This document shows positions 915 to 12,198 of a DNA stretch of 21,830 nt, piece after piece. Position numbers and translations under genes: made by a program. The stretch is from a virus, in the IMG/VR virus record IMGVR_UViG_3300025141_000892, positions 1 to 21,830 of that record, one strand, 5' to 3'. Every line of letters starts with the position of its first letter. Position 1 is the stretch's first letter. Under the pieces are notes generated by a model. That model was not told where the DNA came from, did no database searches, and saw only the letters and a program-made list of their open reading frames with translations.

Positions 915-1267
915 AATAGTTTTTTAATAGTTAGCAGTCCAGTTCCTTTTCTACTTCTGTAAATTAATCTTTTGTCTGGTCTGTACGTTACCTGATTATT
1001 CTTTTTCCATATATCTTCATCAATCAATTTCTTTTGAGCTCTTAACCAAATGTAATAAGTTTGTACGTTCACTACAAAACGCTCTCCTCTTATTCCAGAT
1101 CTAAAAGCCTCCTCTACATCATTCCAACTTAAATTACTCCAATCTCTCATTAAATCCTCAGCAAGAGTAGAAGCAAGAATAAGAATATCTTTATCAGATT
1201 TTGTTTGTCCTAATTGAACTAAGGTGTTTGATATTAGTCCTATGCATTTTTTAGTTAGTTCTTTCAT
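911..1267 (-). CDS. Hypothetical mostly helical protein, 118 residues
   Basis: 118 residues, predicted largely helical by eye. The core reads SWNDVEEAFRSGIRGERFVV, then VNVQTYYIWLRAQKKLID. A pattern of 'AFR-x-G-x-RG' followed by a tryptophan helix occurs in small proteins of flavobacterial phage replication regions, so a role as a replisome or helicase-loading accessory is possible, but this is a guess from context. The C-terminus is strongly basic (KRLIYRSRKGTGLLTIKK), compatible with nucleic acid contact. The start is fixed by an ATGA overlap with the 85-residue gene upstream, and its stop overlaps the next start in the same way. Confidence 0.68.
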   Translation of the reverse strand: MKELTKKCIGLISNTLVQLGQTKSDKDILILASTLAEDLMRDWSNLSWNDVEEAFRSGIRGERFVVNVQTYYIWLRAQKKLIDEDIWKKNNQVTYRPDKRLIYRSRKGTGLLTIKKLL

Positions 1268-1521
1268 AATTTTAACTTTAATTGTTTTCCATAATATTCC
1301 CTTTGATCTATTTCTATTCTTTTCAAAATTGAATAATATTTACTTTTTTTTGGAATATATCCTAAATCCTTATAATCATTTTTTAATATTGATAAACAAA
1401 TTTTTTTATATGAAGGTACTTTATCACTTATTTGAATTGGAGCTTCATCTGGTATTCCTTTTTTATAACATCTTGATTCCCATAATTTAATATATTGTTT
1501 AATTTTATTTTGTACTCCCAT
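1264..1521 (-). CDS. Free-standing PAPS-reductase C-terminal (DUF3440-like) domain protein
   Basis: 85 residues. Residues 36-58 (PSYKKICLSILKNDYKDLG...) align with residues 390-413 of the PP-loop protein at 2788-4083 (TSWKRFVITILKNDHTCKYLG...). Shared positions are S-[WY]-K-[RK], the ILKND core (45-49 here, 399-403 there) and a following K..LG..P. It therefore looks like a detached copy of that C-terminal module, preceded by its own conserved-looking segment LWESRCYKKGIPDEAP. It may be a subunit acting with the PP-loop protein. It overlaps the 146-residue gene by 94 nt in another frame and is ATGA-coupled to the next gene. The similarity is seen directly; the role is inferred. Confidence 0.72.
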   Translation of the reverse strand: MGVQNKIKQYIKLWESRCYKKGIPDEAPIQISDKVPSYKKICLSILKNDYKDLGYIPKKSKYYSILKRIEIDQREYYGKQLKLKL

Positions 1522-1868
1522 CTTTTAATATGTTTTATAGCTTCATTATTTGCTAATATACTTTTTTCTTTAGTTAAACTTTTCCAAACTTGTCTTGTAA
1601 TATATTCTGGTATTTGATATTTGTAATAACACGCACATTGACCAACAAAAGCTTTTCTGTTTAAACTTTTATTTGAAAGATGATTTAACATTGTTAAATT
1701 CCATAATTTAACTACATCATACATTGATCTGCTAAATTCTTTTGTATCGTTCATTAAATTAAAACATAATTCTTTTTTAATATCTTCATCTTCTTTTGAT
1801 ATTTTGTTATACATTTTACTTTTATAGCATTCCCATTTCCAGTAAGGAATAAAAATTTGTTTTATCAT
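1428..1868 (-). CDS. Unknown protein associated with the ParB/PP-loop cassette, 146 residues
   Basis: 146 residues, rich in Trp, Tyr, Cys and Lys. It opens IPYWKWECYKSKMY. The centre is SLNRKAFVGQCACYYKYQIP, followed by EYITRQVWKSLTKEKSILAN and a terminal IKRWEYKIKL. The ordered set 'NR-KAF-GQCAC', 'PEYITR-x-W', 'LT.E....AN' and a closing 'WE' looks like a real conserved fold rather than a chance frame. I cannot name the family. It is ATGA-coupled to the ParB-like gene, which ties it to that cassette. The last ~31 residues lie in a 94-nt overlap with the 85-residue gene and may be an unconserved tail. Confidence 0.7.
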   Translation of the reverse strand: MIKQIFIPYWKWECYKSKMYNKISKEDEDIKKELCFNLMNDTKEFSRSMYDVVKLWNLTMLNHLSNKSLNRKAFVGQCACYYKYQIPEYITRQVWKSLTKEKSILANNEAIKHIKRWEYKIKLNNILNYGNQDVIKKEYQMKLQFK

Positions 1869-2389
1869 ACCTCAGCATCCCAACTTTGTGAAAAGTCTTT
1901 ATTTTGAAATAAAGAAGATAATCCAGTTATTTGTTTCATTCTTAATAATTCATCTTTACTCATTCCAATATGTTTGCATATCCAAGCATCTCCTTTTCCC
2001 ATTTCAACTAATTCACTTACAATTGTACTCATTAAATCTATATTATGACTTCCTCTAGCTCTATTATGTCTAATTGTGGAGGCCATTCTGTCTGAAATAT
2101 CTTTATTTAAAACACTAATTGGCAAATGATCTTCCTCTCTTTCTCTTATCCTTTTACTGTTAATCATTGTTGAGTATCTATGGAATCCATCTACTACAAT
2201 ATACATTTCTGATTCTGGATCATAAACAGTAACAATTGGCATAGTATAACCATCTTCCCAAATAGAAGTTTCTAATAGCTCCATTTCTGGAGGAGCAACT
2301 GCGTTTGGATTATAATCATTTGCCTTTACTTTGCTTATATGTACTCTTAATACATTGTAAACTGGAGATAAAAATTTTTCTGTTTTCAT
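1865..2389 (-). CDS. IbrB/YbdM-like ParB-fold protein
   Basis: 174 residues with a ParB/sulfiredoxin-like N-terminal domain: VHISKVKANDYNPNAVAPPE (16-35), LLETSIWEDGYTMPIVTVYD, then VDGFHR (66-71) where ParB proteins carry their G-x-R-R-type motif. RHNRARGSH (107-115) follows, and a helix-turn-helix-like region comes after it (WICKHIGMSKDELLRMKQIT, 136-155). The pattern closely matches IbrB and E. coli YbdM, which are encoded next to the PP-loop proteins IbrA and YbdN. The same pairing is seen here, with a cupin gene in between. IbrAB are known to activate eib genes in E. coli; the biochemical activity of the family is not settled. A plasmid-partition role is unlikely because no ParA is present. 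Confidence 0.85.
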   Translation of the reverse strand: MKTEKFLSPVYNVLRVHISKVKANDYNPNAVAPPEMELLETSIWEDGYTMPIVTVYDPESEMYIVVDGFHRYSTMINSKRIREREEDHLPISVLNKDISDRMASTIRHNRARGSHNIDLMSTIVSELVEMGKGDAWICKHIGMSKDELLRMKQITGLSSLFQNKDFSQSWDAEV

Positions 2390-2408
2390 TTTCTTTTAAT
2401 TTTTTTAG

Positions 2409-2786
2409 TTAGTTTTTATATGATCCATCTTTTTGATGTATTTCATTTCCTTTAATTGGAGGATTAAATACAGATATTAAAATAACATCTTCTAATGATT
2501 CAAAAGTATGATTATCATAATTATCTAATATGTAAATATCTCCAACATTAATTTTATGTTTTTCTTTAGTTGTTAAATTTGTTAATATTCCCTTTCCTTG
2601 TATGCAATAGCATGATTCTTTATGATATTTATAGTGCCAATGTCCTTTTTGCCCCTTTGGAATAATAGTTTTGTGAAATGAGAATCCCATTCCATCCTTT
2701 TCTAATATCATTCTAATACTTCTACCTTCTTTAAATTTAACATCTCTTTCTGTTCCTGTTAAATCGTTTTCATTAATTACTTTCAT
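2409..2786 (-). CDS. Ectoine-synthase-like (EctC-type) cupin
   Basis: 125 residues, one small beta-barrel cupin. Landmarks are FSFHKTIIPKGQKGHWHY (35-51), CYCIQGKG (59-66), VGDIYILDNYDNHTF (81-95), VFNPP (106-110) and EIHQKDGSY (115-123). These match ectoine synthase in order and spacing. The three iron ligands I recall for EctC, Glu57, Tyr85 and His93, fall on E57, Y85 and H93 here. The length equals that of EctC. No ectA, ectB or ask gene is visible, so either the host supplies the substrate or the enzyme acts on another small molecule or side chain. It sits one base after the PP-loop gene and upstream of the ParB-like gene, so it is probably part of that cassette. Confidence 0.82.
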   Translation of the reverse strand: MKVINENDLTGTERDVKFKEGRSIRMILEKDGMGFSFHKTIIPKGQKGHWHYKYHKESCYCIQGKGILTNLTTKEKHKINVGDIYILDNYDNHTFESLEDVILISVFNPPIKGNEIHQKDGSYKN

Positions 2787-2787
2787 T

Positions 2788-4083
2788 TTATATGTTTTTA
2801 TATTTGTTTTGAATTATTCTTTGTCGTTTTGCCTGTTCGTGTGTAGGAGCCAACCCTAAATATTTGCAAGTATGATCATTTTTTAATATTGTAATTACAA
2901 ATCTTTTCCAACTTGTAACATCTGAATTATGACATTTTAACATATCTAAATGATCTGGAGGAATCATTCTTACGCATGTTTTATCTTTTCTCCCATGTCT
3001 TGTTTTTTCTCCTAACTTAAAATCAATTTTATTTTTAGTTAAATCTTCTATCACTTCATCTTCTAAGCCCCGCCCTACTCTCCACCAATATTTTAATGAT
3101 TGAATAAAGCGCAACTTAAAATTTTCTCCAGATTCTTTTGGTAGCGTATCTAATAAAAATTTACAGAAACTTTTCCAAGTGTGACCATCTGGCAAGGTAA
3201 AGGATTTGTAAGTTAATTGTTTTCCATAAGTAGCTATAAAATTAGCGCCTGAAACTCTAGCACACAATCTACTCCAAACATGACCATCAATAATTCTATA
3301 TAAATTTAGACTTGATTTAGATTCACTCATAAAAGGACTTGCAACTCTCATTTGAGCAATGGTTAGTCCTGCCTTCCAAAATATGTCGTAAAGTTCATTA
3401 TATATCCAATTGTATTTTTCATTAGCTATCCAAACATCTTCTGTTCTCCAATCATAAATAGGATATACATTATAACAATTTTTTGTATTTTTTTTAGTCC
3501 AACATAAATTATTGATCATGGTTTTGTTTTTGTTCATTATAGCTCTATACCTATTTAAACTTTCATCAGTTCTAATTCCTATAAAATTTGCACATTTTTT
3601 ATCTTGTGCATACCATTCTCCAAATTTATCCCAAAATTCATCATAAGACATATTTTCAATAAAAAAATCAAATTTATGATTATCTATATTAACTATATAG
3701 TCTTCATCTGGCATAGGCCTTATCCATCTTTTTTCATCATTAACTCCCCAACATTGCCAATCTATTTCATAACTACTAACAGTGCAAGGAAGTGTTACTG
3801 GTAAACAGCACCAATAAACATCTAATAAATCTATATTTTCTTTTATTATTTTATGCATAAATTTTAAAGAATATTCATAATTAGCTTCATTATCTAAAAC
3901 CATTAATCCTATTTTATCAGTTATATTATTTTTCCTCATGTAGTCTAATACAAGATTTAACATTACTCCAGAATCTTTACCACCACTAAAAGACATGTAA
4001 ATTCTTTCAAAATTATTAAAGATAAAATCAATTCTTTCATTTGCAGCTTCATAAACATTTTTGTTTTCGTTATAGTTTTTCAT
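2788..4083 (-). CDS. IbrA/YbdN-like PAPS-reductase-family PP-loop protein
   Basis: 431 residues. The PP-loop SGGKDS is at 33-38 within YMSFSGGKDSGVMLNL, so the protein should bind ATP and probably adenylate a substrate. GIRTDES (169-175) and VYPIYDWRTEDVW (206-218) are typical of the phosphoadenosine phosphosulfate reductase family. The long middle and the C-terminal SWKRFVITILKNDHTCKYLG (391-410, DUF3440-like) match IbrA/YbdN rather than sulfate-assimilation CysH, which is much shorter. Cys-rich stretches at 92-111 and at 164, 194 and 203 could bind a metal or take part in thiol chemistry. The neighbouring IbrB-like gene supports the call. Substrate unknown; by analogy with DndC a sulfur transfer is possible but not shown. 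Confidence 0.88.
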   Translation of the reverse strand: MKNYNENKNVYEAANERIDFIFNNFERIYMSFSGGKDSGVMLNLVLDYMRKNNITDKIGLMVLDNEANYEYSLKFMHKIIKENIDLLDVYWCCLPVTLPCTVSSYEIDWQCWGVNDEKRWIRPMPDEDYIVNIDNHKFDFFIENMSYDEFWDKFGEWYAQDKKCANFIGIRTDESLNRYRAIMNKNKTMINNLCWTKKNTKNCYNVYPIYDWRTEDVWIANEKYNWIYNELYDIFWKAGLTIAQMRVASPFMSESKSSLNLYRIIDGHVWSRLCARVSGANFIATYGKQLTYKSFTLPDGHTWKSFCKFLLDTLPKESGENFKLRFIQSLKYWWRVGRGLEDEVIEDLTKNKIDFKLGEKTRHGRKDKTCVRMIPPDHLDMLKCHNSDVTSWKRFVITILKNDHTCKYLGLAPTHEQAKRQRIIQNKYKNI

Positions 4084-4087
4084 TATT

Positions 4088-4726
4088 TTAGTTTTTGTAT
4101 TTCTTTTCTAATAAATTTAATGCTCCAACATAAGAATCAATTTGAGCATCTATTTTTGATGTTTTTTTATTGTTCCATTTGTTATCATTCTTGGACCATG
4201 TTTTTAATCTTCTTTCAGTGTTCCAAGTACGCTGGAGGGATTGTCTTGTCTTTCCACTTTTCGTTTCCTCTAACCAGTAACTTTTAAAATCTTCTTTCAT
4301 TTCTTTTGGATAATTTAAGTCTTTAATTTCATCAATCCAATATATCTTATTTAGATTAGTAGTTATTTTATTATCTTTACTTATTTGTGTGCAGTTTTCC
4401 ACATCTGGTTTTTTAAGTTCTGGTTTTTTGGTAAGTGGTTTTTCATAAACAAGAAGTTCCCATTTAACAACCTTTCCACTAAGATTTGTTACTCTGTTAC
4501 GTTCTACATATCCAAACCCATTAAGTTCCTTTAAAACGGAGTAAATGGTGTTCTTTGACTCTTTTACTATAGCAACTAATCCGTTCACAGTTAAATCCCA
4601 TGAATCTGGTAAAGATAATATTAAACTCATCAATCCTTTTGCCTTTAAACTCAAATCTTTTCTTCTTAATATTTCATTAGAAATAATAGAATAGTTCTTA
4701 CTTTTCTGGATTCTTTTTATGTTCAT
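4088..4726 (-). CDS. Phage replication initiator-like HTH protein
   Basis: 212 residues. The N-terminal half (1-95) is a winged-helix/HTH domain of the phage replication-protein type: NYSIISNEILRRKDLSLKAK, then GLMSLILSLPDSWDLTVNGL and a helix ending LKELNGFGYVERNR. A polar linker (about 96-130) leads to a C-terminal segment (FKSYWLEETKSGKTRQSLQR, then WNTERRLKTW) that recurs at the end of phage replisome organiser proteins. Likely role: binding the phage origin and recruiting host helicase. Its ATG overlaps the upstream stop (ATGA). No DnaC/DnaB-type ATPase is in the window, so a helicase loader, if phage-coded, must lie outside or be one of the small unknowns. Confidence 0.75.
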   Translation of the reverse strand: MNIKRIQKSKNYSIISNEILRRKDLSLKAKGLMSLILSLPDSWDLTVNGLVAIVKESKNTIYSVLKELNGFGYVERNRVTNLSGKVVKWELLVYEKPLTKKPELKKPDVENCTQISKDNKITTNLNKIYWIDEIKDLNYPKEMKEDFKSYWLEETKSGKTRQSLQRTWNTERRLKTWSKNDNKWNNKKTSKIDAQIDSYVGALNLLEKKYKN

Positions 4727-8968: not shown

Positions 8969-9790
8969 TTAATTTTGCGTTAAAGTAACTTGACCTCCAT
9001 AAATTCTCTGAGAAGCAGCGTTTACTTTTACTAATATTAATAAATAATTTGTTGTTGTTGCGGCTGTATCGTCTATATCTATTGCCACTCCATTAGTAGT
9101 TCCTGTTCCAATTGTAGATCCAATTCCATTTGTGCTAACTCCACATTCATAAACTTCAACTGTTTTGGTAGTATTAGAACCCCAAATAGTTACATGAGTT
9201 GCAGTTGTACCATAAGGAATGTTTACTGTTGCTAGCATTTCTTGAGCAGCTGTTCCAACCTGAACACCGGAATTAGAAGAATCTTTAAAATTTAAAGCTT
9301 CATCAGAACCATCATCATTAATCATAAAATCTCTTGGCAATATTTTTACATAAGTTGGATCAACACCAGTAATGTTAAAAGTATCCTCAGCAGAATTATA
9401 ATAAATTGGACCAAACGTATCAGCACTAACTGTCATCCCAGCAATTGATCCAGCAGTTTTTCTTTGGTATTGAACAAAAAGATCTTGTTTGTCAATTTCA
9501 ATAAGATCATGTAACTCAATATCAAAATCAAGAACTGTTGAACTAACTGCCAATGTAGTTGATCCAGCAGCCTCATCAGCGCTTAATGTTAGTTTTTGCC
9601 CTCCAATATTAATTACATCCCTTTGCTTCATATCATAAGCAGTAGCAGTAACATCTATTGAGGTTATAGTTAGTCCGTTATATAAATTAATAGAATTTAC
9701 ACGAGCCAAACCTATTCTTTGTCCAGAGTTCTTTGAAGGTTCAAAAGTATTTCCTCCAATAGATGAATTATTTACTATTTTATAGTCCAT
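8969..9790 (-). CDS. Putative tail fibre/adhesin-type structural protein
   Basis: 273 residues, rich in Thr, Ser, Gly and Asn and predicted mainly beta. A segment at about 57-90 (RDVINIGGQKLTLSADEAAG, then STTLAVSS) is a pattern common in phage structural proteins. The C-terminal ~90 residues (TATHVTIWGSNTTKTVEVYE and onward) look like a beta-sandwich. No catalytic motif is seen. It follows the 801-residue tail protein by two bases and precedes the lysis genes, which is the usual slot for a receptor-binding or fibre protein of a siphovirus. It could also be an accessory baseplate or decoration protein. Confidence 0.62.
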   Translation of the reverse strand: MDYKIVNNSSIGGNTFEPSKNSGQRIGLARVNSINLYNGLTITSIDVTATAYDMKQRDVINIGGQKLTLSADEAAGSTTLAVSSTVLDFDIELHDLIEIDKQDLFVQYQRKTAGSIAGMTVSADTFGPIYYNSAEDTFNITGVDPTYVKILPRDFMINDDGSDEALNFKDSSNSGVQVGTAAQEMLATVNIPYGTTATHVTIWGSNTTKTVEVYECGVSTNGIGSTIGTGTTNGVAIDIDDTAATTTNYLLILVKVNAASQRIYGGQVTLTQN

Positions 9791-9792
9791 TT

Positions 9793-12198
9793 TTATATTG
9801 TTACTGAATTTGCCGCCACTTGTTGCTCTCCTATATTTACTGTTTCAGAAGGTACTTCATAAAAAACTTGATTCATTGTGGTGTTCCATTCATCGGTTAG
9901 TAAATTAAAAGTTCCTCTCATTAATTGATATTGGTTGCTATCCAAATCTGTTAGTTTCCCAATTGGATTCATATATTTCATTAAGGTAGTTCCACTATAA
10001 TTTTTATTTGTTTCAGATAATGCAGTTGTTCCATTAAATTGTTTTAAAAATACACTTTGATTGTAAAGAATATTTAACAAAAGCAATTCAGCTAATTTTT
10101 TGTCATAAGCGCCTACTGTATAATCAAAAACTGAAGTTCCGTTATTCCAAGCATAAGTTGGTTTTACCCATTTACCATCTGAAGAAGCAAAAACATAATT
10201 AGTACCATCAGAAGAAACTTTGGTCGTTTCTCCATCCCCCCAAAAATAATTGAGAGCGTTATAAATATATGTATTTTTATTTACTACATCTATTTCAATA
10301 TTTGTTGCAATATTTTGCCCTGCACTTGATAAAGATAAATTCCCCAGAAAAGGAGTTACACCACTTGCGTCAATCGTGTTATCGTAGTCATACTGATATT
10401 TTGTTAAATCTCTCCATATCTTTACAGGAGTTCCATCATAATTTGTTTGGGATGAAGAAGCAAAGCTATAAATTTGTCCATGATTGTGAGTAGAACCATA
10501 ATTAGTTGCTCCTACCGTTCCATCAAAACCTCTCAGTGTAGAATATACGTCTGAATCATAACAAGTAAAAGTTAAAATTGTAAAATCCCATGAACCAGTA
10601 AAAGCAGCATCCACTGGGAAAACTCCATTTGAACAAAAAGGATCTTGAGCAGTAGAATAAGCTTTTATTCCAACAGTTTGGTCTATTACTGCAGCTGTAG
10701 GAATGTGACATCCCTGCCTAGCCCCTCTTAATAGTCCACTCGATCCAGTGTAAGGTTGTCCAATAGGTCCATCCCAATCATCCCAAGCATATTCAAGGGG
10801 AGCAGAAACTGATCTTTTGCATACCTTCCAAGGTTCTGGAACTGACGGATCTCCAGTGTAAGAGCTAGGTTTTGCAACTAAATAAAACAATGATCTAAAA
10901 AACAGTGTATCGCTTGTAGTGTTTTTAAAACTTAAATAAACTTCTAAATTTATTCCATCTGCATTTGCAGCATCTACCATTGTACCCCAAGCTCTAGCTC
11001 CTGTTGCGTCATAAGGATATCTGCTGTAAACAACTTCAGATCCTGACGTACTCCAAGTAGGTGGAAATAAAGGAAATCCCCTATAAACATTTGTTCCAAC
11101 ATTTGAAAAATAAGTTCCATTTGCTGTTTTTATTGCAGGAAGTCCAGAATAAATTGTTCCAGATAATTTTTGTAACCCTTCGCCTGGAGCAGATAAATTT
11201 TCTAAGGTTAAATCATAAGGAGTTAAATCTTTATTTCCAACATAATTTTGATTTGCATCAAACCCTCCTTGATAAAAATATTGTCTTGTAGGAATATTTA
11301 TGGGGTTCAAAGCAGTTCCAGCAGCATCTTCATCTGTATTATATGCATCTATTTCTACAAAATAGAAAACGTGCCGCCAATAAATACATCTCATTCCAAA
11401 ATTCTTACACAGATATTCCATAACTTGATAACAGTTGGGAACATTTACATTGTTATCAGTATCAAAAGAATAAAGCCTTTGCATATCTAACTGAGTATAC
11501 CGTAAAGGATCTATATCTGCAGCGGGAGTTGGATGGCCTTCATTATATAAATTAACTGCTGTTTGTATTTTATAATTTTCTAAATATGTTGCGCCATCTC
11601 CATCATCCTCTAAAACCATCCCAGTATTAAAAAGTAATTCTGGCAACCATTTTATTGTGGATGTTCCTCCAATAATATTAGAAAACCCACTATTGTAAAA
11701 AGTATCATTTGTTATGTATGGAAATGTAGGCACTGCTCCAGTATCAAGATTCGTCTCTCTTATAAATGGTTTATCTTTTAAAGCAGCTAACCCATCAACA
11801 GCCGTTAAACTCACTTCATAAGGATAACTAACGTCTTGTTCATCTTTTAAATCTAATAACACATATCCACACCATAACAAAATATTTGTTCCAGTTGTTT
11901 CTCTAATTGTTATCCATACATCTCTTTCCTGATAAGTTGTTGCAAGAGATAAAATAAAAGCTTTATCAGTTGCATTTTGAACTAAAAAAGGAATAGTGCA
12001 TTTAGAACTTAAAATATAGGAATTTTTATCTTTGTCGTTTGGATTTTCATAGGATATTTGAGCTCCACTTGCTCCTAAAGTCATATCAGTTAAATCTTCT
12101 GCTCCAGTCCATAAAATATTTAAAGTATATTCAGTTCCATTAGAAGAAACTAAAGTTGTATCTCTAGCGGTATTTAAATCATAATCTGCTCTTGCCAT
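9793..12198 (-). CDS. Large tail-tip/baseplate protein
   Basis: 801 residues. The N-terminal ~145 residues are the most conserved-looking: TEYTLNILWTGAEDLTDMTL, then ILLWCGYVLLDLKDEQDVSY and YEVSLTAVDGLAALKDKPF. The 'L-A-A-D/VDGL-LKD' type of region is seen in tail-tip/hub proteins of Bacteroidetes phages. A long Ser/Thr/Gly/Tyr-rich remainder (about 300-700) is predicted beta and may include carbohydrate-facing modules. It starts ten bases after the tape measure gene, the place of Dit/Tal-type proteins. I expect it to close the tail tube end and hold the fibre, but the exact equivalent (distal tail protein or tail-associated lysin) cannot be decided; no peptidase or lysozyme motif is seen. 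Confidence 0.65.
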   Translation of the reverse strand: MARADYDLNTARDTTLVSSNGTEYTLNILWTGAEDLTDMTLGASGAQISYENPNDKDKNSYILSSKCTIPFLVQNATDKAFILSLATTYQERDVWITIRETTGTNILLWCGYVLLDLKDEQDVSYPYEVSLTAVDGLAALKDKPFIRETNLDTGAVPTFPYITNDTFYNSGFSNIIGGTSTIKWLPELLFNTGMVLEDDGDGATYLENYKIQTAVNLYNEGHPTPAADIDPLRYTQLDMQRLYSFDTDNNVNVPNCYQVMEYLCKNFGMRCIYWRHVFYFVEIDAYNTDEDAAGTALNPINIPTRQYFYQGGFDANQNYVGNKDLTPYDLTLENLSAPGEGLQKLSGTIYSGLPAIKTANGTYFSNVGTNVYRGFPLFPPTWSTSGSEVVYSRYPYDATGARAWGTMVDAANADGINLEVYLSFKNTTSDTLFFRSLFYLVAKPSSYTGDPSVPEPWKVCKRSVSAPLEYAWDDWDGPIGQPYTGSSGLLRGARQGCHIPTAAVIDQTVGIKAYSTAQDPFCSNGVFPVDAAFTGSWDFTILTFTCYDSDVYSTLRGFDGTVGATNYGSTHNHGQIYSFASSSQTNYDGTPVKIWRDLTKYQYDYDNTIDASGVTPFLGNLSLSSAGQNIATNIEIDVVNKNTYIYNALNYFWGDGETTKVSSDGTNYVFASSDGKWVKPTYAWNNGTSVFDYTVGAYDKKLAELLLLNILYNQSVFLKQFNGTTALSETNKNYSGTTLMKYMNPIGKLTDLDSNQYQLMRGTFNLLTDEWNTTMNQVFYEVPSETVNIGEQQVAANSVTI

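Follow-up and report, generated by a model that had tools for sequence, protein, structure and literature searches.

The IbrA/IbrB pair, known in E. coli as YbdN/YbdM and annotated in phages as 'co-activators of prophage gene expression', consists of a PP-loop protein with a DUF3440 domain and an adjacently encoded ParB-fold protein. The same pair is found in a cassette of five open reading frames (ORFs) at positions 1264-4083 of the viral record IMGVR_UViG_3300025141_000892 (IMG/VR), a 21.8-kb stretch analysed here over its full 21,830 nucleotides and referred to as the window. All five ORFs lie on the minus strand at the positions given in the original prediction, which described them as coupled genes, assigned an identity to four and listed one, of 146 residues, as unknown; family searches confirm the four identities, and the remaining gene, g4, matches no family. 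Compared with the described pair, the window cassette adds to IbrA (g1) and IbrB (g3) a metal cupin (g2) and two small proteins (g4 and g5), carries a long-tailed IbrA and has no SNF2 partner. Streptococcus phages and bacteria with two-gene loci encode an IbrA ~40-47% identical to that of the window; identity to the IbrA of an E. coli phage is ~32%.

A parallel with DndC and DndB had also been drawn in the original prediction. The pairing of a PP-loop enzyme with a ParB-fold protein is indeed shared with Dnd systems, and g1 displays a local DndC match around GxRxxES, but the resemblance to DndC itself is weak: g1 scores 22.9 bits against a TIGR03183 cut-off of 290.4 and was rejected as a DndC. 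A PADLOC search for Dnd components in the five cassette proteins returned weak local DndC matches only. We know of no counterpart of the cupin, g4 or g5 in Dnd systems.

The five-gene set recurs well beyond this phage. Cultured phages were searched with tblastn, and our own family models for all five genes were applied to 267 distinct loci, 173 of which are uncut by contig ends (complete loci). All five genes, which the original prediction had treated as a unit, occur together in 96 distinct loci, with the order 1-2-3-4-5 in 70 of them, 4-5-1-2-3 in 9, 1-2-4-5-3 in 7, 3-4-5-1-2 in 4, 2-3-4-5-1 in 3 and other orders in the rest. Nearly all viral loci with an IbrA at least 67% identical (n = 80) hold the five genes in shuffled orders, and separate scans for g4 and the cupin led to IbrA/IbrB neighbourhoods in every case not truncated by a contig end. 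A tie between cupin and IbrB is shown by their fusion in 27 loci, among them those of the cultured phages XCL1123 and Gaia; g4-g5 and g5-IbrB fusions also occur, and g5 directly follows g4 in 114 of 114 loci. The five genes form a conserved modular unit that is found in many unrelated phages, in an arrangement far from chance. Persistence of the gene set through reordering and fusion is the strongest evidence that it represents one functional unit.

Among cultured phages, tblastn shows adjoining cupin and IbrA genes in Pseudoalteromonas phage XCL1123 and in Mycobacterium phages Gaia and Nebkiss. According to the family models, XCL1123 and Gaia each have the complete set of five; in Gaia, one protein comprises both the cupin and the ParB part. 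The 'Ectoine synthase/ParB multidomain protein' of these two phages belongs to the same cassette, of which the records name the PAPS-reductase and cupin/ParB genes only, leaving g4 and g5 hypothetical or unannotated. The tested Streptococcus and Lactobacillus phages encode IbrA and IbrB alone out of the five. The 80 closest bacterial and archaeal IbrA loci, all but two of them at 40-47% identity, consist of IbrA-IbrB only or SNF2-IbrA-IbrB; the exceptions with all five genes are metagenome-assembled genomes of a Saprospiraceae (L222) and a Planctomycetota (L223) member. With these two exceptions, the full set is essentially viral in this sample.

The relation between IbrA, g4 and g5 follows a rule. 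In the long form of the IbrA tail, a conserved W is separated from a PD motif by ~43 residues, in the short form by ~10. The g5 product (1264-1521, 85 aa) is a stand-alone short-form C-terminal tail of IbrA/DUF3440: it matches DUF3440 at positions 137-173 (E 2e-6) and aligns with short-tail IbrA lineages, not with the long tail of the window phage's own IbrA. When g4 accompanies a long-tail IbrA, g5 is present in 82 of 82 complete loci, and when it accompanies a short-tail IbrA, g5 is absent in 18 of 18. The cultured phages Amjad_SA and Mwe-JY13, with a short tail, g4 and no g5, obey the same rule. It thus appears that g4 needs a short IbrA tail, in cis or in trans, and g5 looks like such a tail supplied in trans. 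The short-tail form changes state once in the IbrA tree, so the 18 short-tail loci count as one lineage. A weak match of g5 to Pfam RTP (replication terminator protein; E 0.002) falls under the cut-off.

The 146-residue g4 protein (1428-1868) is all-helical and appears to represent a new family, matching no Pfam, PHROG, NCBIfam or PADLOC family. Its AlphaFold2 (AF2) model is of high confidence (predicted local distance difference test, pLDDT, 92), and Foldseek and VIA-align searches found no clear match to a solved fold (best VIA Z 3.5). Against viral models, the sole strong match is A0A649V0K8 (root-mean-square deviation 1.0), g4's own phage homologue.

To follow the accessory genes through evolution, we used a phylogeny based on the core of 154 IbrA sequences, without the tail columns. 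The cupin changes state once, being present in all 67 members of one clade (support 100) and in none outside it, while g4 and an SNF2-like helicase change state 8 times each. The latter two do not coincide at any locus: among complete loci, 100 have g4 and 35 have SNF2 with an overlap of 0, and among all 267 the numbers are 165 and 53, again with an overlap of 0. With the threshold relaxed to E 10, the surroundings of g4 still gave no SNF2-like match; 6 g4 loci have a different SF2 helicase in their vicinity. Close relatives can make the opposite choice, as seen for L165 (SNF2) versus L061 (g4-g5) and for the L188 group (SNF2) versus the other cupin loci. The pairs L093/L102 and L094/L105 also differ in this respect, although the placement of L094 is unsure owing to a long-branch join. 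Together, g4 and g5 look like an alternative to the SNF2-like helicase. Motifs I, II and VI are kept in 10 of 10 SNF2-like proteins of viral loci; in those of bacterial genomes, motifs I and VI are kept in 4 of 36 and lost in most. In many of the mostly alphaproteobacterial loci L225-L288, the SNF2-like protein lies directly upstream of IbrA and is kept despite loss of motifs I and VI. A further variant of the system is seen in Flavobacterium phage FCL-2 (L306, 4145-7009), with the order SNF2-IbrB-IbrA and an IbrA without the DUF3440 C-terminal tail. The ORFs upstream of IbrA/IbrB in this phage were considered as g4/g5 and rejected, the gene adjoining IbrB encoding the SNF2-like protein.

IbrA of the window (g1, 2788-4083, 431 aa) combines an N-type PP-loop (SGGKDS) adenine-nucleotide hydrolase domain with DUF3440 in its long-tail form. 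It belongs to the IbrA (DUF3440) family, with DUF3440 far over the Pfam cut-off (E 3.1e-55, 187 bits versus 25), a PP-loop domain (PAPS_reduct, 2.1e-11) and a match to phrog_2302 (2.5e-107). The SGGKDS and GIRxxES residues are invariant across 40 IbrA sequences. Its AF2 model (pLDDT 75, moderate) is nearest to the PAPS domain of FAD synthase (Z 14.0), CysD (13.8) and APS/PAPS reductases (11-13); tRNA enzymes, NcsA and TilS among them, also match but rank lower. IbrB (g3, 1865-2389, 174 aa) is a ParB/Srx-fold protein with a DGFHR motif and a predicted C-terminal helix-turn-helix (HTH), matching the ParB-like phrog_2159 (2e-74). The IbrB family profile matches ParB and Noc structures, and relatives match Pfam ParB_N. 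By this homology IbrB is a ParB-fold protein that may bind CTP/NTP. An IbrB-type partner adjoins IbrA, and the two also stand together in two-gene genome loci.

The cupin (g2, 2409-2786, 125 aa) is a member of the EctC family that lacks the substrate Trp of EctC. It exceeds the cut-offs of both family models (Pfam Ectoine_synth 2.6e-42, 144 bits versus 27; NCBIfam PRK13290, 147 bits versus 128), and the metal triad E57/Y85/H93 is present. With EctC it shares the fold, the iron ligands Glu-57, Tyr and His, Ser-23, Arg-25, Thr-40, Tyr-52 and the C-terminal FNPPxxGxExH segment. The three ligands together with S23, R25, T40 and Y52 are conserved nearly without exception in 77 phage cupins. In EctC, Trp-21 is fully conserved, clamps the substrate and is needed for activity, the W21A variant retaining 9.7% (PMC6344544). 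A Trp in the clamping region is found in 7 of 7 bacterial EctC proteins but is missing from 76 of the 77 phage cupins. Phage cupins further differ from EctC by an invariant Cys-59 and form a separate branch in the tree (support 98). Family searches found no match to ectA or ectB in the cassette or its immediate neighbour genes, and on this ground, together with the Trp loss, true ectoine synthesis was rejected. These features suggest that the phage cupin would perform related metal chemistry on a different substrate. Residue 38 was dropped as a second difference, as bacterial EctC is also variable there. An apparent phage locus with a cupin from human feces (MT835761.1, 'Bacteriophage sp.') has a bacterial-type ectB-ectC region; it is probably a bacterial contig and hence no exception. 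The EctC genes of two Streptomyces and Rhizobium plasmid loci (L309, L310) adjoin an adenylating enzyme and a phosphopantetheine-binding protein, and EctC-like enzymes may thus operate in carrier-bound pathways.

The cassette genes are tightly coupled, as indicated by spacings of 1, 19, -4 and -94 nucleotides between g1-g2, g2-g3, g3-g4 and g4-g5; the neighbour genes at 4088-4726 and 911-1267 are equally close. The g4/g5 overlap (1428-1521, 94 nucleotides, out of frame) lies towards the C-terminus of g4, where the model has low confidence for the final residues, and is probably real, because g5 homology starts near the g5 start codon. The genes around the cassette serve replication (an NGO0469-type initiation protein, an exonuclease of phrog_284 and an HTH_36/replication initiation protein), and tail and head genes make up most of the remaining window. 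Ten gene families recur beside the full cassette, and every one of them has a role in phage DNA replication or recombination. A search of the window for a palindromic ParB-type site found a single AT-rich palindrome present more than once. The region 8969-12198, lying between the genes for the exonuclease and the tape measure protein, encodes two proteins (273 and 801 aa) without a PHROG match. In L013, which is closely related to the window phage, homologues of the window genes 4088-4726 and 911-1267 come directly after IbrA-cupin-IbrB.

We tentatively favour, at somewhat less than even probability, a modular phage enzyme complex acting on DNA or a DNA-held substrate in early replication. IbrB would serve as a ParB-like, nucleotide-switched DNA-binding platform, and the PP-loop of IbrA would activate the substrate by adenylation or by sulfur or nucleophile transfer, in the manner of DndC, FAD synthase, CysD or tRNA thiolases. 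The IbrA product, handed over on IbrB, might next undergo elimination, cyclisation or hydration by the metal cupin, while g4-g5 may dock IbrA to its nucleic-acid substrate or partner, replacing the helicase. We infer both the DNA or DNA-held substrate and the action of the cupin after IbrA. The outcome would most likely be a modification of phage DNA bases by which the genome is shielded from nucleases or expression is altered. Nucleic-acid modification, raised in the original prediction and still inferred, is favoured because of the ParB and HTH architecture of IbrB, the cupin-ParB fusions, SNF2 adjacency in sister loci and the replication-gene location. In Dpd systems, the ParB-like ATPase DpdB inserts a modified base (PMC12839542); we regard this as a thematic precedent, not as evidence of homologous function. 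A hitherto undescribed kind of phage DNA hypermodification would be unlikely; in it, the PP-loop enzyme would activate a base, a ParB-like protein would hold the complex on DNA, an iron cupin resembling ectoine synthase would close or rearrange a ring of the modified base, and g4/g5 would be exchangeable with an SNF2 translocase.

Several observations weigh against the favoured complex. With phylogeny taken into account, the exclusivity of g4 and SNF2 reaches only weak significance (sign test p 0.06-0.125), and the E. coli-type IbrA of PhiR5_2 is short-tailed without g4. L013 has IbrA-cupin-IbrB without g4, g5 or SNF2. IbrA and IbrB stand alone at 33 complete bacterial genome loci with varied neighbours, so DNA machinery may be dispensable for the core reaction. 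Many unrelated accessory genes, moreover, are found in early phage modules.

Part of the same evidence can be read in terms of a small-molecule pathway, in which IbrA would adenylate or sulfurate a metabolite (an amino acid or nucleotide), the cupin would cyclise or dehydrate it and IbrB would bind NTP or phosphorylate, yielding a product that alters host metabolism or blocks nucleotide-based defence. FAD synthase and CysD, both among the nearest folds of IbrA, adenylate small molecules, the EctC substrate is a free amino-acid derivative (PMC6344544), and EctC-family genes adjoin adenylating enzymes and carrier proteins in L309 and L310. We consider this pathway a doubtful but serious contender: the weak similarity of IbrB to the free-serine kinase SerK amounts to 18 bits against an NCBIfam cut-off of 380, for which g3 was rejected as a SerK, and the retained HTH region of IbrB, the replication-module location and the SNF2 association all weigh against this pathway. 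The ParB/HTH architecture would also suit a regulatory complex controlling early or host expression through DNA binding, with enzyme activity secondary or lost, in line with the E. coli annotation of IbrA/IbrB, which names them prophage gene co-activators. Such a role is improbable, as the near invariance of the PP-loop residues and the cupin metal triad across divergent phages indicates retained chemistry.

The PP-loop superfamily includes tRNA thiolases and TilS, and the structural matches of IbrA to NcsA and TilS would be consistent with modification of RNA (tRNA or mRNA) instead of DNA. FAD synthase, CysD and PAPS/APS reductase outrank these tRNA enzymes, however, and partners such as the ParB and SNF2 proteins suggest DNA, leaving RNA a distinctly remote candidate. 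A further reading of g1 is that of an auxiliary sulfur-metabolism gene, a CysH-type PAPS reductase with unrelated neighbours, as implied by PHROG and GenBank names and by publication of the XCL1123 gene as a sulfur-cycle auxiliary metabolic gene (AMG; PMC10232697). As the original prediction had anticipated, the PP-loop protein does not group with ordinary CysH enzymes. The CysH PAPS and APS reductase models give 21 and 14 bits against cut-offs of 154 and 165, CysH models overall reach 14-21 bits against 154-254, and the C-terminal ECGxH motif of CysH was not found in the g1 translation. Given also the constant DUF3440 and IbrB partnership, the sulfur-metabolism explanation has almost no probability left: IbrA is not CysH, though such genes are named sulfur AMGs.

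We found no description of the five-gene module or of DUF3440 function in the open-access literature. IbrA, IbrB and the EctC fold are known; what appears to be new is the way they are combined, together with g4 and the tail rule. With the metal cupin and g4/g5, or the SNF2 helicase, the unsolved IbrA/IbrB pair gains clear partners, and the cultured phages Gaia, Nebkiss and XCL1123 allow direct tests of the chemistry of the module. IbrA-type genes in phages of many hosts, XCL1123 being one example, are often named sulfur-metabolism AMGs (cysH). From the cassette context, they are components of a dedicated multi-protein machine, with consequences for claims of viral sulfur cycling.

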